Below, piece after piece: positions 22,404 to 47,632 of a stretch of 64,000 nt of DNA. The position numbers and the translations under genes were made by a program. Positions within the stretch are counted from its first letter, which is position 1. The number at the start of each line of letters is the position of its first letter. A model generated the notes under the pieces. The model had not been told where the DNA came from. It saw only the letters and a program-made list of their open reading frames with translations, and ran no database searches. The stretch comes from Pseudomonadales bacterium (GTDB lineage Bacteria > Pseudomonadota > Gammaproteobacteria > Pseudomonadales > Pseudohongiellaceae), in assembly GCA_023257655.1 (NCBI GenBank), contig JALRBQ010000014.1:56261-120260 (forward strand), read 5' to 3'.

Positions 22404-24875
22404 ATGCCATCCTTCGCCCCAATGCTCGTTCGCAACCACCTGCAAGCGCTGGTGCTAGCCTCGCTGTGCAGTGTTTTCTGCCCCGCTGCCTTAGGCCAGG
22501 CCGAGCCGGGCGCCACCGAATACAGGGCGCTGGTCGATCAGTATTGCGTCGCCTGCCATAACTCACAATTCAACAATGCCGGGGTCATTCTTGAAGGGCT
22601 GGATATGTCCGCGCTGAGCCAGGATGCCGAGGTGTGGGAGCGGGTGATGCGCAAACTGCGCTCTCGCGCCATGCCCCCGCCGGGTAGCCCGCGCCCGGAC
22701 GAAGCCGTCTATCAGGTCATGATCGGCTGGATGCAGCAGCAAATTGATACCGCCGCGCGCGTCGCTCCCAACCCCGGACGCACGGAAACCTTCCATCGAC
22801 TGAATCGCTACGAATACAAGGCTGCCATCGAGGATCTGTTGGCGATCTCGGTCGATGTGGAGGAAATGTTGCCCGGGGACAACACTTTCGATGCCGGTTT
22901 CGATAATAACGGAGCCATGCTGTCAGTGTCGCCGGTATTGCTCGAGCGCTATCTGCTCGCTGCGCGCAAGATCAGTCGCCTCGCGGTTGGCATCGCTCCT
23001 GCCACGCCTTCGATCGACAATTACAAGGTGCCGCTCAACCTGATTCAGGATGAACGCACCGATCCGCGCCTGCCCTTCGGATCGCGGGGCGGCACGGTAG
23101 TGGAACACTATTTTCCAGTGGATGGTCGCTATCGGGTCAAGGTCGACCTGCAGACGCAGTACAACGATTACCTGCGCGGCATGGGTCGTAAACACACGCT
23201 GGATATTCGCCTCAACGGGGCGTTACTGCAGCGCTTCCAGGTTGGAGGGGAGGCGCCAGGCATGGCATCGCCAGAGGGCTATGCCGGCAACATCATGATG
23301 GATCCCGAATGGGAAGACTACATGCACCATGCCGACGACAAGCTATTCGTTGAATTCGAGGCGAAGGCGGGTCCGCAACAGTTGACGGTGTCCTTCGTGC
23401 GCAATCTCGTCGAGCAGCCCGGCATCTTGCAGCCCCGACAGACCAGCTATGCTCTCGCCACCGAGCAACGCTACTTCGGCAATGCCGCGGTCGATCTGGT
23501 GACAATCACCGGACCCCTCGAGACCTACCAGCCGGGCAATACACCCAGTCGTCGTCGTATTTTCAGCTGCCAACCCGCGGAATCCTCCGACGCCCGGGCT
23601 TGTGCCCGTGACATTCTTGCCGATCTCGCCACCACCGCCTATCGGCGGCCAGTCACAGACTCAGAGCTCGATACTTTGCTCACGTTCTATGGTGAAGGAG
23701 AGGATTTTGAATCCGGCATTCAACGCGCGATCGAACGGCTGCTGGTCGATCCAAATTTCCTGTTTCGCATTGAGCACGATCCTGCCGGCATCCTGCCGGA
23801 TGCGACCTACGCGGTGAGCGACATCGAGCTGGCTTCACGGCTGTCCTTCTTCCTCTGGAGCACAATCCCGGATGCCGAGTTGCTGGAAACAGCCATCGCA
23901 GGCCGACTCTCCGAGCCCTCTGAGTTGACCCGGCAGGTTGAGCGCTTGCTGCATGATCCGCGCGCGGCGGATTCGCTGGTCCGAAATTTCGCAGCCCAGT
24001 GGCTGCAGTTGCGCAATCTGAAAACACACTTGCCGGATCCCGAAATCTTCCCCGAATTCGATGAGAATCTGCGCGAGGCCTTTCTTCGCGAAACCGAACT
24101 GTTCATCGCGCACACGATTGAAAATGATGCCAGTGTCATCGAGCTGCTGGATGCCAATTACACCTTCGTCAATGAACGCCTCGCTCGCCATTACGGCATC
24201 GATGGTATCTATGGCCCACACTTCCGCCGGGTTGAATTCGCCGCCGGCGATATCCGTGGCGGGTTGCTGGGGCAGGGCAGCCTGCTGACGGTGACTTCCT
24301 ATGCCAATCGCACCTCACCGGTTTTGCGCGGCAAATGGTTACTGCAGAACATAGTCGGTTCGCCACCGCCTGAACCTCCGCCCAACGTGCCGGCCCTGCC
24401 CGACAGCGGCAAGCAGGGACAACCGGCGTCTGTGCGGGAGCGGCTTGAAGAGCATCGCCGCAATCCGGTTTGTGCCAGTTGCCATGCTCCCATGGATCCG
24501 CTCGGCTTTGCCCTGGAAAACTTCGATGCGATCGGCAGTTGGCGTCGCATCAGCGAGGGTGGCAGTGTAATCGATGCGTCGGGGATCTTACCAAACGGTA
24601 TAAAATTCGAGGGTGTGCTGGGTCTCCATGATCATCTGGTGAGTGACGCGCCACTGTTTGCTGAAACCGTCACTGAAAAATTACTGGCATTTGCACTCGG
24701 ACGGGGCTTACAGTATTTCGACCGTCCGACCATCCGCCAGATTGTGCGAGACGCGGCGCCGGAGGATTATCGCTGGTCGGCACTCGTGAAGGGCATCGTG
24801 CTGAGTCCGGCGTTTCAAATGCGGCGGGCGGAGTCAGCTGATGCGGGTCTGGCTGTGGCCGAGGAGAGTCTCTGA
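22404..24875 (+). CDS. Secreted DUF1592-family protein with two CxxCH heme motifs
   Basis: An 823-residue exported multi-domain protein (domains 1587, 1592, 1588 and 1585 as in planctomycete-type cytochromes). An N-terminal cytochrome-c-like domain has YCVACHNSQFN (CxxCH) and MPPPGSPRP as the distal Met region. The DUF1587 part holds HRLNRYEYKAAIEDLL, and the central domain has ASRLSFFLWSTIPD. The DUF1588 part holds VCASCHAPMDPLGFALENFD, a second CxxCH. The C-terminus is DUF1585-like (KLLAFALGRGLQYFDRP). The role is unknown, thought to be extracellular redox or polymer use. The signal peptide begins at M1 or M7. Its TGA overlaps the ATG of the DUF1552 gene. Confidence 0.9.
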   Translation: MPSFAPMLVRNHLQALVLASLCSVFCPAALGQAEPGATEYRALVDQYCVACHNSQFNNAGVILEGLDMSALSQDAEVWERVMRKLRSRAMPPPGSPRPDEAVYQVMIGWMQQQIDTAARVAPNPGRTETFHRLNRYEYKAAIEDLLAISVDVEEMLPGDNTFDAGFDNNGAMLSVSPVLLERYLLAARKISRLAVGIAPATPSIDNYKVPLNLIQDERTDPRLPFGSRGGTVVEHYFPVDGRYRVKVDLQTQYNDYLRGMGRKHTLDIRLNGALLQRFQVGGEAPGMASPEGYAGNIMMDPEWEDYMHHADDKLFVEFEAKAGPQQLTVSFVRNLVEQPGILQPRQTSYALATEQRYFGNAAVDLVTITGPLETYQPGNTPSRRRIFSCQPAESSDARACARDILADLATTAYRRPVTDSELDTLLTFYGEGEDFESGIQRAIERLLVDPNFLFRIEHDPAGILPDATYAVSDIELASRLSFFLWSTIPDAELLETAIAGRLSEPSELTRQVERLLHDPRAADSLVRNFAAQWLQLRNLKTHLPDPEIFPEFDENLREAFLRETELFIAHTIENDASVIELLDANYTFVNERLARHYGIDGIYGPHFRRVEFAAGDIRGGLLGQGSLLTVTSYANRTSPVLRGKWLLQNIVGSPPPEPPPNVPALPDSGKQGQPASVRERLEEHRRNPVCASCHAPMDPLGFALENFDAIGSWRRISEGGSVIDASGILPNGIKFEGVLGLHDHLVSDAPLFAETVTEKLLAFALGRGLQYFDRPTIRQIVRDAAPEDYRWSALVKGIVLSPAFQMRRAESADAGLAVAEESL

Positions 24876-26194
24876 TGATTATTACGAAGAAGTGTTTACC
24901 TCGTCGGACCCTGTTGAAAGGTCTCGGTACCGCGCTTTCGCTGCCGCTGCTTGACGCGATGGTCCCGGCGCTCACCGCACAGGCAGCCACGGCAGCACCG
25001 GTGAAGCGACTCGGCGTGGTCTACATTCCGAACGGCATGGCGATGGAATACTGGACACCTGCTACAACGGGAGCCGGATTCGAGCTGACACCGGTAATGC
25101 GCCCGCTGGCGAGTTTTCACGACAGGATTCTGCCCATTTCCGGGCTCAAGCTGCCCTGGGACAACGCCCCTCACGCGGGTGGTTCTGCCCCGTTCCTGAC
25201 TGGCTCGGTAGGCAATACCGGAGAGACTGACATCCGCTGCAGCGTGTCAATGGACCAGATCGTAGCCCGTGAATTCAGCCAGCACACCCAACTCGGGTCG
25301 CTGGAGCTGGCGATGGAAGATCGGGGGAACTCGGGGCAGTGCAGCAACAGTTTCGCCTGCATCTACACCAATACCATCGCCTGGCGTGACGCCACCACAC
25401 CGCTGCCGATGCAGAATAATCCACGTATCGTATTCGAACGCATGTTTGGTGATAGCGAGAGTACCGATGCGCAGGCTCGCCAGCTACGAATCCGGAATGG
25501 TCGCAGCATCCTCGATTCGGTGTTAGGCACTGTCAATGATCTCAAGCGCGAAGTTGGCGCCGCCGATCAGGACAAGATCAATCAGTACCTCGATGGCGTG
25601 CGCGACGCCGAGCGCCGTTTGGAGAAGGCCGAGGAGCAACAGGACAAGGCCTTGCCGGTCGTCGACCGCCCGTCGGGCATTCCTGCCAATTATGAACAAC
25701 ACGCAAAACTGATGTTCGACTTGCAACTGCTCGCCTATCAGACCGACCTCACGCGGGTTATCACCTTCATGCTGGGTCGCGAGCAGAGCAGCCTCACGTA
25801 TTCCGAGATTGGCGTCGCAGAGGCACACCATCCGCTCTCGCACCACGCCTATGATCCGGTAAAGATAGAGACGATGTCGCGCATCAACACTTTCCACGTC
25901 AGTCTCTTCAATTACTATCTCGAGCGTCTCGATGCGACGGCTGATGTTGAGGGCAGTCTGCTCGACAATACCCTCTTGCTCTATGGCAGTGGTATCTCGG
26001 ACAGCCACGTTCACAAGCATGACAACCTGCCAATCCTGCTCGCGGGCGGAACGAATCTCGGGATCAAGGGTGGTCGCCATCTGCAATTCACCCGCGACGA
26101 GCCGCTGGCAAACCTAATGGTAACTGTTATGGATGCGATGGGTGTGCACGTGGAACGCCTTGGCAACAGCGTCGAGGCACTTCCGATCGGTTAG
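24875..26194 (+). CDS. DUF1552 family protein, partner of DUF1592 protein
   Basis: A 439-residue protein with a Tat-like start (PRRTLLKGLGTALSLPLLDAMVP), so export in folded form is likely. RLGVVYIPNGMAMEYWTP and LLLYGSGISDSHVHKHDNLPILLAGG match DUF1552. The HDNLPILLAGG part resembles sulfatase/phosphatase-like DUF1501 proteins with metal-site residues. The gene overlaps the DUF1592 stop by 1 nt (TGATG), and the two families usually co-occur. It is convergent with the ankyrin gene 13 nt away. Confidence 0.9.
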   Translation: MIITKKCLPRRTLLKGLGTALSLPLLDAMVPALTAQAATAAPVKRLGVVYIPNGMAMEYWTPATTGAGFELTPVMRPLASFHDRILPISGLKLPWDNAPHAGGSAPFLTGSVGNTGETDIRCSVSMDQIVAREFSQHTQLGSLELAMEDRGNSGQCSNSFACIYTNTIAWRDATTPLPMQNNPRIVFERMFGDSESTDAQARQLRIRNGRSILDSVLGTVNDLKREVGAADQDKINQYLDGVRDAERRLEKAEEQQDKALPVVDRPSGIPANYEQHAKLMFDLQLLAYQTDLTRVITFMLGREQSSLTYSEIGVAEAHHPLSHHAYDPVKIETMSRINTFHVSLFNYYLERLDATADVEGSLLDNTLLLYGSGISDSHVHKHDNLPILLAGGTNLGIKGGRHLQFTRDEPLANLMVTVMDAMGVHVERLGNSVEALPIG

Positions 26195-32225: not shown

Positions 32226-32386
32226 AGTTTTCCGTAATATCGTGCGCGCTGGTGCAGCGAAAACAGCAATTATCACCTGCACGACTGCAGACGGAAACCG
32301 TTTTTACTCGAATCCCGCTTTTCGCTACAATGCACGCTCACAACTTTGCTGCGGATTTACGTTCCGTCTTGCAAACAGGAAGCACT

Positions 32387-33415
32387 ATGTCTATTTCCAA
32401 GACGTCTGTCTCTACGACGCCAGACGCGGCGGCGCCCGTGGTGGTCGCCGCACTCTATAGATTCGCGGATTTCCCCGATTTCGCCGATTTTCGCCAACCC
32501 CTGCTCAAACTCATGCTCGATCAAGCTGTACGCGGCACGCTGTTACTCGCCACTGAGGGCATCAATGGCACAATCGCCGGTTCTCGTGAAGGCATCGATG
32601 CGGTGCTGGCCTGGTTGCGCCGCGATGCGCGCTTCGCCGCGCTGGAGGCGAAAGAATCCTTTGTCGCGGACAACCCGTTCTATCGCAGCAAGGTCAAACT
32701 GAAGAAAGAGATTGTCACGATGGGTGTCGAGGACATCGATCCACGGCAAATTGTTGGTACCTACGTGGCCCCCAAAGACTGGAATCAGCTCATCGATGAT
32801 CCCGACGTGCTGGTGCTCGACACCCGCAATGAATACGAGGTGGAAATTGGCAGCTTTCGCCGTGCCGTCAATCCCCATACCACGTCATTTCGCGAATTCC
32901 CGGTTTATGTGGCGCAACACCTCGATCCAAAGAAACACAAAAAGGTGGCAATGTTTTGTACCGGTGGTATTCGTTGCGAAAAGTCCACGGCCTATCTCAG
33001 GCAACACGGTTTCGAAGAGGTCTATCACTTGCAAGGTGGCATTCTGAAATATCTGGAGGAAGTGCCGGAGACAGAAACCCGTTGGGAAGGCGAATGCTTT
33101 GTATTTGATAATCGCGTCACGGTGAATCATCGCCTCGAGCGCGGTAATTACGACCAGTGCCATGCCTGCCGCATGCCTATTACAGAAGCAGACAAACAGA
33201 GCGAGCACTATCAGAAAGGTATCAGCTGCCATCATTGCTATGACAAGCATGATCGTCATCAGATTCAGCGTTATGCCGAGCGTGAAAGACAGATGCAACT
33301 CGCCAGGGCGCGGGGAGAGGCTCACATCGGGCAACCGATGCAGGAGACCATCGCTCAGCGTCGCGAGCGCAAACGCCACTTCAAGGAGCAGCAACGGGCG
33401 CAAGAGAAAAGCTAG
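32387..33415 (+). CDS. trhO: tRNA uridine-34 5-hydroxylase (rhodanese-like)
   Basis: A 342-residue member of the YceA/TrhO family, which makes 5-hydroxyuridine at tRNA position 34 with O2. The N-terminal acylphosphatase-like domain has [15 protein letters not shown], then [11 protein letters not shown]. The rhodanese domain holds [20 protein letters not shown] and the active cysteine in [16 protein letters not shown]. The C-terminal part is CxxC-rich (CHACRMP and CHHC), with a basic tail RERKRHF. AGGAAG precedes the ATG at 32387. The divergent MscS gene lies 162 nt away. Confidence 0.92.
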
Positions 33416-33508
33416 CGCCTCGCCGTGGCGATAACCCTCCGCGGTGCCATAGCCACCCACAGGTTATTGGGATATAGTCGGCCAATAACAAGAAGAAGGG
33501 TGTCGCCT

Positions 33509-35863
33509 ATGACTGATGTTCTCTCGAAGTCCACAGCTCCTCGCGTCTTTCCAATTATTCTCTGTGTGATCGCCGCCCCGCTAATCCTCGGTGGCGTTCA
33601 ACTCGTGTTTCTGGCCGGTTCATTCTATTACTTGTTGGCGGGGCTGGCGCTGGTCGCTTGTGCGCGCAAGCTCTGGAATGCGGATCCCACGGCCTCCCTG
33701 ATCTATGGTGGCTTGCTGGTGGCAACGATAGCGTGGGCTCTGCTCGAAGCCGGAACCAATCTGTGGGCACTGCTGCCACGCATCGTGCCCCTGGCAGTGA
33801 TCGGCCTGTGGTTTCTCACTCCCTGGTTGCGCTGCACCTTGTACAGCGGCACACCTCCACCCCTGTTTGCTTCCAGCCTCTCGCGCTATGCCGTGCTGAT
33901 CGGGTTTGTCGTAACCGCCTACGTGTTGATCGCCGGCAGTGGATACACCGTGAATCCGCTGGCGCCTCGCAGCACGCAAACGGCAGTCAATAGCGCGACC
34001 GACTGGCCCTCCTATGGCAACACGGTTGGCGGGACACGCTATTCTCCACTCGCAGAAATCAACCGTGACAATGTCGAGGATCTGGAGCTGGCCTGGAGTT
34101 TTCGCACCGGCGCCGGCGGTGCTTTCAAGGCGACTCCGTTGCAGATCGGGGAGCTGTTGTATTTCTGCACCGGCGGCAATATCGTGATCGCACTCGATGC
34201 CGATAGCGGCGAGTTGCGCTGGCAATTCGATCCGCTGGTCAGCCCCGAACATCTGGAATTCGCGCGATACTTCACAACGGGCTGTCGCGGGGTGTCTTAC
34301 TATGCGGCACCTCCCGAATACGACGGCGAGTGCAAGGAGCGCATCCTGACGGCGACATCCGATGCACGATTAATTGCGATCGATGCCATCACCGGTGCCC
34401 GCTGTTCACAATTTGGCGAGCAGGGCGAGATTAACCTCACAATCGGTATGGGGAATGATCCGTTGTTGTTCAACTTCCAGACTTCACCGCCAGGTATCGT
34501 GCGAGGTAACGCAGTGGTGGGTGGCTGGGTGCTGGACAATCGCAGTGTCGGCGAGCCCTCGGGTGTCGTCCGTGCCTTCAATGCCATCAGTGGCCAGTTC
34601 GCCTGGGCCTGGGACATGGGACGACCGGGAATCAATACCGAGCCATTGCGTGGTGAGGTTTACACGCGCGGCACGCCCAATGTCTGGAGTCTGTTCAGCG
34701 TCGACGAAGAGCTGGGCCTGATCTACGCGCCGACCGGGAACGAGACACCGGACTACTTCGGCGGTCAGCGCATGGAAGCGAGTGAGCAGTATGCCAGTTC
34801 GGTAGTGGCCATCGATGGCGAAACCGGTGCTGTGCGCTGGTCCTACCAGACCACGCATCATGACATCTGGGATTATGATGTACCGTCACAACCGGTGCTG
34901 CTCGATTTGCCTGATGCTTCGGGTCAGGTGGTGCCTGCAGTGCTCGTGCCGACCAAACGCGCCGAGGTGTTTGTGCTCAATCGAGTCACCGGGGAACCGC
35001 TGTTCGACATTGAGGAGCGTCCGGTTCCGCAGAGCGGTGGCGTGCCGGAGGACTTCGTGGCGGCGACCCAGCCGTTCGCTGTCGATCTGCCAAACTTCCG
35101 GCCTGACCTGAGTGAACGCAAGATGTGGGGCATCACCCCAATCGATCAGATGCTGTGTCGCATTGAATTTCGCAAGATGCGTTATGAGGGTCACTTCACT
35201 GTGCCCGGAACTGACACGATCCTGCAATTTCCAGGTAATGCCGGAGGTCACAACTGGGGTAGCGTGAGTGTCGACGAAGCGAATCACATCATGGTCGTCA
35301 ATCCGCTGGTCATGTCCAACCAGCTAACCCTGTATCCCCGTGACAATCTGCCGTCAGGTGTTCCGAACAATCAGGTAGGCACGCCTTACGCGCAAACTAC
35401 GGTGCGCTTCATTTCACCGCTGCAGATTCCCTGCCAGCAGCCACCGTATGGTGTGCTCGCAGCCGTGGATCTTGAAACCAAACAATTGTTATGGGAGAGG
35501 CCAATCGGCAGCGCCAAAGCCAGTGGCCCTCTCGGCATTCCTACCCGGCTCCCGCTCACCGTAGGGACACCGCAGTCCGGCGGTACCGTCACTACCGCCG
35601 GCGGTTTGATCTTTATTGCCGGCACCTTCGACAATACCGTGCGCGCCATGGACTTGCTGACTGGTGAGGAACTCTGGCAACATCCTTTACCGTATACTGC
35701 GCAGGGTACGCCGATGACCTATAAGACCTCGGCGGGTGCGCAGACTGTCATCGTCACGGTGCCAGTATTCAATTCCACCTCCGCCGTTGGCTTTCGCGTG
35801 CTGCCGGCAGCCGAAGAAGATCCGTTGGGGGGTTATGTTTTCGCTTACAGGTTGCCGCAGTAG
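33509..35863 (+). CDS. Membrane-bound PQQ glucose-dehydrogenase-type quinoprotein
   Basis: A 784-residue protein of the Gcd type. Five N-terminal membrane helices (about residues 12-145) anchor it to the inner membrane. The periplasmic PQQ propeller follows: WPSYGNTVGGTRYSPLAEIN, SVDEELGLIYAPTGNETPDY, WSYQTTHHDIWDYDVPSQPVL and GHNWGSVSVDEANHIMVVNP. Family members oxidise aldoses to lactones and pass electrons to ubiquinone. The ATG at 33509 (AAGGGTG upstream) is preferred over the track start. No pqq biosynthesis genes are in the window. It overlaps the M42-like gene by 29 nt. Confidence 0.9.
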   Translation: MTDVLSKSTAPRVFPIILCVIAAPLILGGVQLVFLAGSFYYLLAGLALVACARKLWNADPTASLIYGGLLVATIAWALLEAGTNLWALLPRIVPLAVIGLWFLTPWLRCTLYSGTPPPLFASSLSRYAVLIGFVVTAYVLIAGSGYTVNPLAPRSTQTAVNSATDWPSYGNTVGGTRYSPLAEINRDNVEDLELAWSFRTGAGGAFKATPLQIGELLYFCTGGNIVIALDADSGELRWQFDPLVSPEHLEFARYFTTGCRGVSYYAAPPEYDGECKERILTATSDARLIAIDAITGARCSQFGEQGEINLTIGMGNDPLLFNFQTSPPGIVRGNAVVGGWVLDNRSVGEPSGVVRAFNAISGQFAWAWDMGRPGINTEPLRGEVYTRGTPNVWSLFSVDEELGLIYAPTGNETPDYFGGQRMEASEQYASSVVAIDGETGAVRWSYQTTHHDIWDYDVPSQPVLLDLPDASGQVVPAVLVPTKRAEVFVLNRVTGEPLFDIEERPVPQSGGVPEDFVAATQPFAVDLPNFRPDLSERKMWGITPIDQMLCRIEFRKMRYEGHFTVPGTDTILQFPGNAGGHNWGSVSVDEANHIMVVNPLVMSNQLTLYPRDNLPSGVPNNQVGTPYAQTTVRFISPLQIPCQQPPYGVLAAVDLETKQLLWERPIGSAKASGPLGIPTRLPLTVGTPQSGGTVTTAGGLIFIAGTFDNTVRAMDLLTGEELWQHPLPYTAQGTPMTYKTSAGAQTVIVTVPVFNSTSAVGFRVLPAAEEDPLGGYVFAYRLPQ

Positions 35864-37973
35864 TGAAATAAAGACACTGGCACTACGGCTCGTGATGCTG
35901 ACAGGATTCTGCCTGTCGGCCTCGAGTGCGGTCGCTCAGCCTGAGGCGCTGTCGCGGCTCGCGTCCTGGGTGGCGCTCGATGCGCCGACGGGTCACGAAC
36001 ACCTGGCGCTGGACGCAATCGCTGAACAATTTCCCGGCTGGGAGCGGGACCGATACGGCAATCTCAGCCGCACGGTCGGCTCCGGTTCACCGCATCGAGT
36101 CGCCGTGTGTGCCATCGATGCCTACGCCTATGCCATCAGCCAGATCACCGACGCTGGCTATCTGCGTCTGCATCGCCTTGGTTCAGGGTCACGTCACCCA
36201 CTCTGGGACCAGATGCACGAAGGTCAACAGCTACGCATTTCCACGCGCAGTGGTCCGGTAATCGGCGTTACGGCCATCGCTAATGGCCACTTCGCCGCCC
36301 AGCACCGCGACGAGACGGCGATTGTCTCTGCCGACGATCTGTGGCTGGACGTCGGCGCCGAATCCGCTGCTGAGGCGGCCGCGCTCGGCATCGCGCTGCT
36401 CGATCCGGTTACGCGCAATCTGCCCGCCTGGTATTTCGGCGATGAGATCGGCGGCCCTCGCAGTGGTGCCCGCGTGGGTTGCGCCGCACTGATGGCGGCA
36501 GCGCAGGCGAGCATCAATGGCGCGCAGGGCAGCACCAGCTATGTGATGAGTGTGCAGCAGGTGTTCGGTTGGGTCGGTCTGGGCGCGGCGCTCGGCAATC
36601 TGCCGGTTGCCGATGAGCTGATTGTTCTGGCCCCGGGTGCGGCAGTCGCGCGCGACCAGGTCGTCTCGGGCCTAGGAGGCCGCGTCGATGATCGCCTCGC
36701 CACGCGTGCCCGCGCGATACGCTTGCTGGCCCCGGCGGTGTCCGACCCGGATGCCCTGATGGAGCGGGTTGGGCTGTCGTCAGCGACCGCGCTGCTACGC
36801 AGTCTCGTCTCGGCGATCGATCCGGCACGCACTGGCCTGCCGGACTGGGTGGCCGCGCCTGCTCCAGAGCGAGAACTCAATAATTTGGCCGAGCGCTGGG
36901 GCTCCGGACCCAACATCCGCCGGCTGCAGGAGATCGAGGCTATACTGGATCAGCTGGCTGAGAAGTCAGCGACACCCGGTCACGAAGGCCCCATCCGCAA
37001 TACGATTTACGAAGCCTTGCCGGCGTGGGCACAGGAACTCGCCCAGGCCGACGCGCTCGGCAACCTGTGGGTGGAGTTTGGGCCGGCGGGTCCGGCTACG
37101 GTGTTCATGGCCCACATGGACGAAGTGGGTTTCGAGATTGCAGCGATCGATGCTAACGGCATCGTGGCACTGGAACGTAAAGGCGGTGCTGTGGCGTCAG
37201 CCTGGGAGAGTCAGCCGGCCGTAGTCACCGTGGATACCGGCACTAACATCGACTCGTTAGTGAATGCGCCGCAGCTGCGCGGTGTGTTCCTGACCCGGGG
37301 CGACGCGGTTGACAAAAATCCGGATACAGTAAGCGCCTGGTTCGGGATGAACTCGGAGCAACTCGCTGCCGCCGGTGTCAGGGTCGGCATGGGTGTTACC
37401 GGTTATAAGGAAGGGCATCGCATGGGGGCCTATCGCTATGCGTCGCGCTCTCTCGATGATCGCGTCGGTTCCACGGCCTTGCTCACCGCCCTGCAAGGGC
37501 TCGATCCGGCACGCGTCGCCAGCCGTGTGATCTTCGCCTGGTCGGTGCGAGAGGAGGGCGGTCTGAATGGGGCTGCCGCATTGGCGGCCGTGGTTGGAGA
37601 TCGCTCGCGGCGCATCTACAGCATCGATACCTTTGTCACCTCTGATACGCCACTTGAGTCTCCGCACTTCGCGTATGCGCCGCTGGGCCAGGGCCCGGTC
37701 CTGCGCTCAGTCGAAAACGCCGCCATGGCGGTTCCCTTCGAGCTGGACCGCAACCGCCGAATCGCCGCAGACGCCGGCATCGCTGTGCAGATCGGACTGA
37801 CCCAGGGCGGGACCGATGGCACCACATTCACGTTCTATGGTGCGCCGAACGCCGGCCTTTCCTGGCCCGGTCGCTACAGCCATTCTCCCGCGGAGATCGC
37901 CGATCTGCGTGATGTCGCCGGTCTGGTCGACCTGATTCAGGCGATGGCACTGGAGCCGGTGGATTCCCAATGA
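35835..37973 (+). CDS. Exported tandem M42-like (aminopeptidase-type) protein, first half degenerate
   Basis: A 712-residue protein with a signal peptide. The second half (about residues 370-712) has M42 signatures: TPGHEGPIRNTI, AHMDEVGFEIAAI with the metal His and Asp, SRSLDDRVGS, the REEGG glutamates and SIDTFVTSD. The first half repeats the same plan (APTGHEHLALDAI, CAIDAYAYAISQI, GDEIGGPRSGARVG, VQQVFGWVGLGA) but lacks most metal ligands. So it is an internal duplication with one dead copy. The start is unsure: ATG 35835 overlaps the previous gene, and ATG 35895 is shorter. Confidence 0.78.
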   Translation: MFSLTGCRSSEIKTLALRLVMLTGFCLSASSAVAQPEALSRLASWVALDAPTGHEHLALDAIAEQFPGWERDRYGNLSRTVGSGSPHRVAVCAIDAYAYAISQITDAGYLRLHRLGSGSRHPLWDQMHEGQQLRISTRSGPVIGVTAIANGHFAAQHRDETAIVSADDLWLDVGAESAAEAAALGIALLDPVTRNLPAWYFGDEIGGPRSGARVGCAALMAAAQASINGAQGSTSYVMSVQQVFGWVGLGAALGNLPVADELIVLAPGAAVARDQVVSGLGGRVDDRLATRARAIRLLAPAVSDPDALMERVGLSSATALLRSLVSAIDPARTGLPDWVAAPAPERELNNLAERWGSGPNIRRLQEIEAILDQLAEKSATPGHEGPIRNTIYEALPAWAQELAQADALGNLWVEFGPAGPATVFMAHMDEVGFEIAAIDANGIVALERKGGAVASAWESQPAVVTVDTGTNIDSLVNAPQLRGVFLTRGDAVDKNPDTVSAWFGMNSEQLAAAGVRVGMGVTGYKEGHRMGAYRYASRSLDDRVGSTALLTALQGLDPARVASRVIFAWSVREEGGLNGAAALAAVVGDRSRRIYSIDTFVTSDTPLESPHFAYAPLGQGPVLRSVENAAMAVPFELDRNRRIAADAGIAVQIGLTQGGTDGTTFTFYGAPNAGLSWPGRYSHSPAEIADLRDVAGLVDLIQAMALEPVDSQ

Positions 37974-38365
37974 GCGAAGAGCAAACTCCCTATCTGACTC
38001 TGGCGATGAGTCCCTACGGCTCCCTGCTGGGCATCGAACTGGTAGAGTATTCGCCGGGTCATGCGCTGTGTCGCATCAAGCTCGTGCCTCATCACTACAA
38101 CACCGGTGGCCGCGTGCACGGTGGTGTGCTGAGCTCGCTCGCCGATACCGCCGCCGGCGTCGCCGTGCGCACGATTCGCCCCGAGGGCAGACTGTCGGCG
38201 ACAACTGATCTCAACATCGCCTTCATCCGCCCGCCGCAGGGTGACACGCTCGAGGCCATCGCCGAAGTCATTCACGCCGGCAAGCGTCTGTATCGGGTGG
38301 AGATCAGCATTCATTGCGAGGGCAAGCTCATCGCCAGGTCCTCAGCCACGTTCATGTTGGTGTAG
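37970..38365 (+). CDS. PaaI-type hotdog thioesterase
   Basis: A 131-residue acyl-CoA thioesterase of the PaaI/YbgC-like hotdog group. YNTGGRVHGGVLSSLADTAAGVAV contains the HGG loop and the Asp/Glu-type active position of this family. It is cytosolic. The ATG overlaps the stop of the M42-like gene (ATGA), implying coupled translation despite the different cell location. The natural substrate is unknown. Confidence 0.9.
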   Translation: MSEEQTPYLTLAMSPYGSLLGIELVEYSPGHALCRIKLVPHHYNTGGRVHGGVLSSLADTAAGVAVRTIRPEGRLSATTDLNIAFIRPPQGDTLEAIAEVIHAGKRLYRVEISIHCEGKLIARSSATFMLV

Positions 38366-46429: not shown

Positions 46430-47632
46430 ATGTCTGCCCCACGTATCCTCATCCCGTTCCTGCTCACCGCCTGCCTGGCGCCCACCCCTGGTCTGGGTCA
46501 GGCCGGTTATGACGAAGCGCTGCTCAACCAGAAGCGGGTCTTTACAAGCGCCGGCGCGCAGGCAATGGCGGAACCGTTCGTTGGCATCGCCACGTCTGCC
46601 GGTATCAGGGAAGGGCTGTTTCCGCTCCGCGCGACCGGCGCCTCGACTGAAATGGTGGTTCACGCGGCCAACCTGTTTCTCTCAACGATGTCGCCCATGC
46701 AACTCAGTCGCAGCCAGTTCGCCATAGATGACCCTGAATGGCGTAATTGGTCGAATGTCGATGTCGGCATCTTTGCGCGCCATGGCATCAGCCTGGAAGA
46801 GATGTCTGATCAGCAAAAGGCGGCCGCCTGGAACCTGCTCAGTGAGTCGCTGAGTCCCGCCGGTCTGAGCAAGACCCAGCGCATCATGCGTACAGAGCAA
46901 ACCCTGCTCGAACTTAACGGCGAACCCATCCGCTACGGCGAGGAAAAATATTATTTCACGATCATGGGCAATCCCTCGAACGAGGAGCCCTGGGGTTGGC
47001 AACTCGATGGCCATCATCTGGTGATCAACTTCTTCGTGCTGGGTGATCAGATTGTAATGACGCCGGCATTCTGGGGAGGAGAGCCAGTTGTCACAGATTC
47101 CGGCAAATATGCTGGCAATGTCATCATGCAGGAAGAACAGAATCTTGGGCTTGCCTTCATGCAATCACTCGATGCGTCCCAGCAACTGCAAGCGACGATC
47201 AATCCGGAAAAAACCCGCAACGCACCGATGGCGGCGGCCAATGCCGACAACCAGCAGATCGACTTCGCCGGCATTCGCGGCGGTGATCTGAGTGGCGCGC
47301 AGAAAGCCCTGTTGCTGAACATTGCGCGCGTGTATGTCGGTAATTTGCGCGAGCCCCATGCTGCGGTGACCATGGACGATGTGAGTCAGTACATAGATGA
47401 AACCTATTTTGCATGGATTGGTGCGGCGAGCGATGACGCCGCATTTTATTACCGCATTCACAGCCCCGTTATTTTGATTGAATTCGATCATCAGAATCCG
47501 GTGGGGACCTTGCAGAAGAACACGCCCGGCATGCCGACGCGCGATCACATTCACACCGTAGTGCGCACGCCGAACGGAAACGACTACGGTAAGGACCTGT
47601 TGCGCCAGCATCTGCTGGCACACCCACATTAG
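46430..47632 (+). CDS. DUF3500 family secreted protein
   Basis: A 400-residue protein with a signal peptide (PRILIPFLLTACLAPTPGLGQAGY). The core WGWQLDGHHLVINFFVLGDQIVMTPAFWGGEPV and the C-terminal NPVGTLQKNTPGMPTRDHIHTVVRTPNGNDYG fit DUF3500. The conserved His/Asp residues suggest a metal site, but no activity is known. The ribosome-binding site is weak (AAGAGAG). It is followed by the NHL propeller gene. Confidence 0.85.
   Translation: MSAPRILIPFLLTACLAPTPGLGQAGYDEALLNQKRVFTSAGAQAMAEPFVGIATSAGIREGLFPLRATGASTEMVVHAANLFLSTMSPMQLSRSQFAIDDPEWRNWSNVDVGIFARHGISLEEMSDQQKAAAWNLLSESLSPAGLSKTQRIMRTEQTLLELNGEPIRYGEEKYYFTIMGNPSNEEPWGWQLDGHHLVINFFVLGDQIVMTPAFWGGEPVVTDSGKYAGNVIMQEEQNLGLAFMQSLDASQQLQATINPEKTRNAPMAAANADNQQIDFAGIRGGDLSGAQKALLLNIARVYVGNLREPHAAVTMDDVSQYIDETYFAWIGAASDDAAFYYRIHSPVILIEFDHQNPVGTLQKNTPGMPTRDHIHTVVRTPNGNDYGKDLLRQHLLAHPH

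Follow-up and report, generated by a model that had tools for sequence, protein, structure and literature searches.

A tandem M42 peptidase-like protein with a metal-site half and a loop-histidine half: a candidate composite active site

Canonical peptidases of family M42 have one unit per chain, which carries the catalytic metals and a loop histidine together, and those studied assemble into dodecamers. What would a chain do that holds two such units, one of them stripped of its metal site? The question is raised by a gene in the window, by which we mean the whole 64,000-nucleotide stretch of Pseudomonadales contig JALRBQ010000014.1 that was analyzed. A reading of the letters alone (the sequence-only reading) had described the product as a tandem M42-like protein with an active-looking half and a degenerate half. 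We examined both halves by domain search, structure prediction, and comparison with relatives.

Two M42 units in one predicted exported chain

The gene and its parts are as follows.

35835..37973, + strand: tandem M42 gene, an open reading frame of 712 amino acids (aa) matching PF05343 twice, a pseudo-half followed by an active-looking half
35835..35936, + strand: aa 1-34, probable Sec signal peptide, recognized by eye from a hydrophobic stretch and an A-x-A motif
35952..36875, + strand: half 1 (aa 40-347), M42 fold without a metal site (Pfam, PDB matches, AF2 model, Foldseek)
36876..36929, + strand: linker joining the halves (aa 348-365; from the alignment and the modeled secondary structure)
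36930..37970, + strand: half 2 (aa 366-712), M42 unit with a complete metal site (full-length PF05343 match, PDB M42 matches, Foldseek)

The frame opens with an ATG at 35835 (an upstream GTG at 35736 is a possible alternative), closes with a stop codon ending at 37973, and is undisrupted in a 22-row full-length alignment with relatives. The Sec-like signal sequence ends in SASSAVA-Q, with cleavage predicted after AVA, and signal-like N termini are present in most of the aligned relatives too, in agreement with the earlier suggestion of an exported form. The G+C content of the gene (0.647, versus 0.582 for the window) is the highest among the genes checked; since its relatives lean the same way, this richness may reflect protein composition more than recent transfer.

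Both halves passed the curated cut-off of PF05343 (23.2 bits). Half 2 (aa 409-700) scored 140.6 bits across profile positions 1 to 292 of 292, and half 1 (aa 82-252) scored 63.4 bits (E = 2.3e-17) across positions 8 to 176, so the domain search recommended for the two halves recovers M42 in each. The chain thus contains two M42 units in place of the single unit by which the family is recognized. An FGGY_C match on half 1 fell below its family cut-off and was dismissed as chance. A sequence search with half 1 alone found M42 aminopeptidases of solved structure (9qr6, E = 9e-9; 5ds0, 2e-8; PhTET1, 4e-8). An AF2 model of half 1 by itself, built with 21 relatives, had a pLDDT of 82.7 and a pTM of 0.84, and Foldseek placed it with the M42 TETs (9qr6, E = 5e-19, TM 0.74; PhTET1, TM 0.75). 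Half 2 matched M42 both by sequence against the PDB and by Foldseek, and profile-profile comparison of the two halves gave an E value of 1.5e-7 over 205 columns. The full-chain model had a pTM of 0.81, with low confidence at the half-1 loop (aa 149-166, pLDDT <50). An unrelated fold for half 1, the outcome named beforehand as fatal to the tandem interpretation, is ruled out by the PDB sequence matches, the AF2 model, and Foldseek; the structure predicted for half 1 is M42 (TM 0.74).

Residues kept and lost in each half

A survey for the same layout, also proposed beforehand, returned 64 fused relatives, the window included, from Gammaproteobacteria, Gemmatimonadota, and Acidobacteriota. It also returned 10 split pairs, in which a half-1-like gene is followed by an adjacent half-2-like gene on the same strand. 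The architecture had been called unusual; it does have two units in place of the usual one, but it is no lone oddity. The units were aligned as 19 ordinary M42 proteins, 64 fused and 14 separate half-1 units, and 64 fused and 10 split half-2 units. As an independent control we added 24 further ordinary single-unit M42 proteins from Pseudomonadota, for an ordinary total of 43. The positions that matter in the window protein are listed below.

36111..36113, + strand: half-1 Ala93, in the place of the canonical metal-binding His of HxD; A, G, P, S, Q, N, or T in 77 of 78 half-1 units
36276..36338, + strand: half-1 dimerization-domain loop (aa 148-168, NGHFxxQH), aligning with the canonical M42 PPH loop
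36288-36290, + strand: codon of His152 in the half-1 loop; His in 78 of 78 half-1 units
37113..37121, + strand: half-2 HMD (His427 and Asp429), invariant in 74 of 74 half-2 units
37278..37334, + strand: half-2 loop RGVFLTRGDAVDKNPDTVS (aa 482-500), shortened and without the loop His; 0 of 74 with His at the column
37455..37457, + strand: half-2 bridging Asp541, present in every half-2 unit readable there
37551..37556, + strand: half-2 catalytic base Glu573 and ligand Glu574, with the out-of-frame locus L100 as the one exception among readable half-2 units
37626..37628, + strand: half-2 ligand Asp598 (unit alignment)
37881..37883, + strand: half-2 ligand His683 (unit alignment)

In half 2 the metal set is complete (ligands H427, D541, E574, D598, and H683, together with catalytic E573 and D429 of the HxD motif), and the M42 loop histidine (PPH or xxH) is absent, as in all 74 half-2 units. 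Half 1 has the loop histidine in the form of His152 and has lost the ligands and the catalytic Glu, its sole remaining active-site acid being Asp95, the D of HxD. The contrast between an active-looking and a degenerate half therefore stands: PF05343 is found in both, the ligands of half 2 are complete, and half 1 has nearly none. All four motif pairs quoted in support of a repeated layout are present. The statement that half 1 lacks the metal His and most Asp/Glu is right for nearly all ligands and needs correction at Asp95, which is retained. The word "dead" fits the metal site of half 1 but not its loop, which keeps in 78 of 78 units the very His that is missing from half 2.

Across the family, the two losses are reciprocal. 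Every ordinary single-unit protein (43/43) has all ligands and the loop His. At the loop column, His is found in 43/43 ordinary, 78/78 half-1, and 0/74 half-2 units; at the first position of HxD, the corresponding counts are 43/43, 1/78, and 74/74. The C-terminal ligand His occurs in no half-1 unit and in all readable half-2 units, and the bridging Asp is left in one half-1 unit. Half-2 ligands other than the HxD His are present in every readable unit except the out-of-frame locus L100. The half-2 loop is also about 9 residues shorter, with a median of 19 to 20 residues versus 27 to 29 elsewhere. In a smaller alignment of 21 versus 21 units the reciprocal pattern was perfect.

Glycines aside, five positions of half 1 never vary in any readable row (E55, D72, D95, H152, and D172), and a sixth, R213, is conserved at 99%; all six are canonical M42 positions. 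Of the half-1 invariants, only the two that lie in the loop segment, H152 and D172, are lost from most half-2 units. Two simpler accounts of the loop column were ruled out. A substitute His elsewhere in the half-2 loop is found in only 14 of 74 units, at scattered positions with no conserved place, and a generic loss of the loop His throughout M42 is contradicted by the 43 single-unit controls (43/43 retain it). Taken at the level of sequence, these data provide strong evidence that labor would be divided between the halves. One half-1 unit, at L117, retains a His at the HxD position (VTHIDEPGY) and has lost the other ligands; it is a possible less-degenerate intermediate.

A proposed composite active site and competing readings

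We propose that the two halves form a fused M42 pseudo-heterodimer sharing one composite active site, to which half 2 would contribute the metals and half 1 the histidine, and we give this reading a probability of roughly 0.7. Half 2 would bear the two-metal site and the catalytic Glu. Half 1, having no metal site, would pair with the half 2 of its own or of another chain and lend its loop His152 to the site of half 2. The loop of half 2, useful only to the dead site of half 1, would have been free to shorten and lose its His. If each loop serves the partner unit, the loop of the dead unit must stay and that of the live unit is dispensable; a half-2 homodimer fits less well, because it would need half 2's own loop. 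The chain, predicted to be exported, would be an aminopeptidase for extracytoplasmic peptides, and the split form would be the same heterodimer unfused, made from two adjacent genes with predicted signal peptides.

Several precedents bear on a loop acting in trans. Ordinary M42 and M18 aminopeptidases are built from dimers in which the loop histidine of each subunit extends to the metal site of the other. In human DNPEP, of family M18, the equivalent His170 makes contact with the bound inhibitor from the other subunit, and the H170F mutant is inactive; a loop-swapped site in M42 is predicted by the authors of that study (PMC3472314). In PhTET2, His123 lies close to the active site of the adjacent subunit in some structures, and loop mutations lower substrate affinity by up to tenfold, for which the authors favor a substrate-stabilizing role (PMC8993905). 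Cryo-EM of the same enzyme places the loop His >20 Å from the site (PMC8993905), and so even canonical action in trans would be transient.

That half 1 serves half 2 only structurally, as a dimer partner or a scaffold for folding, and has no part in the active site is unlikely. M42 units are built as dimers (PMC4220976), so half 2 would need a partner surface, and half 1 has retained the whole M42 fold. However, a scaffold has no need for a flexible-loop His, which is nonetheless invariant in all 78 half-1 units, and this explanation does not account for the loss of exactly that His in all 74 half-2 units.

We regard as improbable a function belonging to half 1 itself, such as binding a peptide, a cell-wall fragment, or a new metal. 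Candidate conserved residues for it exist (His113, His121, Asp125, Glu129, His152, and His157) and are invariant in the closer relatives of the window protein (HPLWDQ..E.Q and NGHF..QH), but among these histidines only His152 is invariant over all half-1 units, and the other residues are missing in Terriglobia and in split forms.

Very improbable, in our judgment, is a regulatory or autoinhibitory half 1 beside a half 2 that functions independently with its short loop, in the manner of M28 or M20 members of the same clan that have no such loop. The half-2 loop is indeed short, and clan relatives such as M28 do without the dimerization domain (PMC3472314); yet such an arrangement gives no reason for half 1 to have kept the loop His, and in ten of ten split pairs both halves, one of each kind, occur together. 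The idea that half 1 is a functionless, decaying duplicate accommodates the lost metal ligands and is refuted by conservation: half-1 units are 43 to 66% identical to that of the window over their full length across phyla, 21 half-1 rows share >50 invariant columns, the fold is retained, and the architecture is common to 64 fused genes.

The composite-site reading can be set against known enzymes. With the M42 TETs (PhTET1/2/3, TmPep1050, MJ0555, and SpPepA; PF05343) the window protein shares the fold in both halves, the full metal site and catalytic Glu in half 2, and the loop His in half 1, but these features are divided between two halves of one predicted exported chain. No M16 family match was among the Pfam matches of the window protein, and its likeness to M16 is an analogy of architecture only. 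In M16 (clan ME), an active and a degenerate half are fused in insulysin/pitrilysin and form separate subunits in mitochondrial processing peptidase (MPP); the active half is N-terminal, and the degenerate half helps in substrate binding. The M16 fold and clan are unrelated to those of the window protein, in which the pseudo-half is N-terminal and would act as a loop-His donor.

DNPEP resembles the proposed arrangement in that the loop His of the opposing subunit completes the active site (PMC3472314), but it belongs to another family and is a homodimer in which each unit gives and receives a loop and neither is degenerate. Differing M42 paralogs do share one complex in the PhTET2-TET3 heterododecamers, which are nevertheless built from homodimers (PMC4220976), and in Bacillus subtilis YtoP-YsdC; in the passages of the latter report that were consulted, no mention of degeneracy of YtoP or YsdC was found (PMC10090944). 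The literature searched, with subscription papers outside its scope, held no relevant report of a tandem, inactive, or pseudo M42. The parts, the trans-loop principle (M42/M18), and the fused pair (M16) are thus known, and an active and a dead unit fused within M42 would be new. The odds slightly favor an undescribed M42 branch that arose by ancient duplication and reciprocal degeneration and occurs as split pairs or fusions in at least three bacterial phyla.

If correct, the composite-site reading would amount to a proof from nature that a partner subunit completes the M42 active site, in an exported peptidase whose catalytic unit is an asymmetric, single-site pseudo-dimer and not a symmetric dodecamer. 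So far the case for a cross-subunit role of the TET loop has been built on crystal loops that are disordered, on NMR, and on changes in KM, all with a 0.5-MDa dodecamer. Here loop donor and loop acceptor would be separate within one chain, so that a half-1 mutation could be read in the kinetics of half 2 without confusion from symmetry. The family would also be a clear case of an enzyme pair made mutually dependent through complementary loss and maintained both split and fused. For annotation, half 2 alone would pass as an ordinary M42 peptidase, and half 1 would be overlooked.

Relatives, split forms, and gene neighborhood

A scan of 84,980 species genomes yielded 22 full-length tandem relatives, assigned by their records to Gammaproteobacteria, Gemmatimonadota, and Acidobacteria-type taxa, with 45 to 68% identity in the 21 aligned. 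A half-1 profile matched in 34 of 198 genomes from the class of G381 (Gemmatimonadota), 33 of 200 from the class of G377 (Bryobacterales by title), and 13 of 149 from the class of G383 (Vicinamibacterales by title). In the window's order (146 genomes) the only match was the window's own, and in its class (369 genomes) there was no match of similar strength. The tandem gene is absent from two sampled genomes of the window's genus and is the sole M42 gene in the genome that the window comes from; a plasmid collection gave only single M42 matches and no tandem relative. The majority of carriers among the gemmatimonads and acidobacteria encode ordinary single-unit M42 proteins as well. A pseudogene or assembly artifact is ruled out by the occurrence of relatives in many independent assemblies.

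Seven of the split pairs are in the gemmatimonad genomes read, where they take the place of the one gene present in others, and three (L098, L110, and L119) came from acidobacterial searches. Each gene of all ten pairs has its own predicted signal-like N terminus; a frameshift origin is therefore unlikely, as ten of ten second genes start with such a sequence. Single half-1 frames at L101, L103, L105, and L118 were not counted as pairs; they have no second half in the available stretch, and some lie near contig ends. The gemmatimonad pairs L085-L091 mostly sit between purN-like and purH-like frames, recognized by eye.

In a quick tree computed after the loop and ligand columns had been removed, and in which canonical M42 was not a clean outgroup, the 40 rows of half-1 units grouped in one clade and the 36 rows of half-2 units in a second, both at an SH-aLRT of 99. 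Fused and split forms interleave in both clades in a similar order. The tree fits one duplication with division of labor and, later, fusion or fission on more than one occasion, in a direction that it does not show.

Exported-looking M42 proteins are wider than the tandem family, as judged from single-unit examples at L018, L042, L053, and L054. That at L018 (4670-5896, + strand; Vicinamibacterales), with a counterpart at L042, has a Tat-like RRDFL N terminus, all ligands, and the loop His and lies directly upstream of a tandem gene. Those at L053 and L054 are similar to the L018 protein.

Two genes overlap the tandem gene in the window.

33425..35863, + strand: membrane-bound PQQ-dependent dehydrogenase, upstream (TIGR03074, 849.6 bits, above cut-off)
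37970..38365, + strand: hotdog thioesterase, downstream (TIGR00369, PF03061)

The dehydrogenase gene runs 29 bp into the start of the tandem gene, and the ATG of the thioesterase gene lies in a 4-bp overlap with the tandem stop, an arrangement that suggests an operon of the three; both neighbors are shared with five gammaproteobacterial relatives. The gammaproteobacterial order (window 32252-38365) is UPF0176/TrhO, membrane PQQ dehydrogenase, tandem M42, and hotdog thioesterase. Most of it recurs in several gammaproteobacterial relatives, often with UPF0176/TrhO in front, and in the relatives a MocA-type oxidoreductase comes next. The dehydrogenase/thioesterase context is kept only among gammaproteobacterial relatives; other phyla differ, and for this reason we draw no substrate from the neighbors. 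At L004, two consecutive PQQ dehydrogenase genes precede the tandem gene.

Elsewhere in the window, a planctomycete-type cytochrome protein (DUF1592/1588/1585/1587/1595) adjoins a DUF1552 (HXXSHH) protein at 22404-26194, in a proteobacterial genome, and a DUF1588/1592 protein lies downstream of the tandem gene at L003. A DUF3500 protein (346 bits) is encoded at 46430-47632 of the window.
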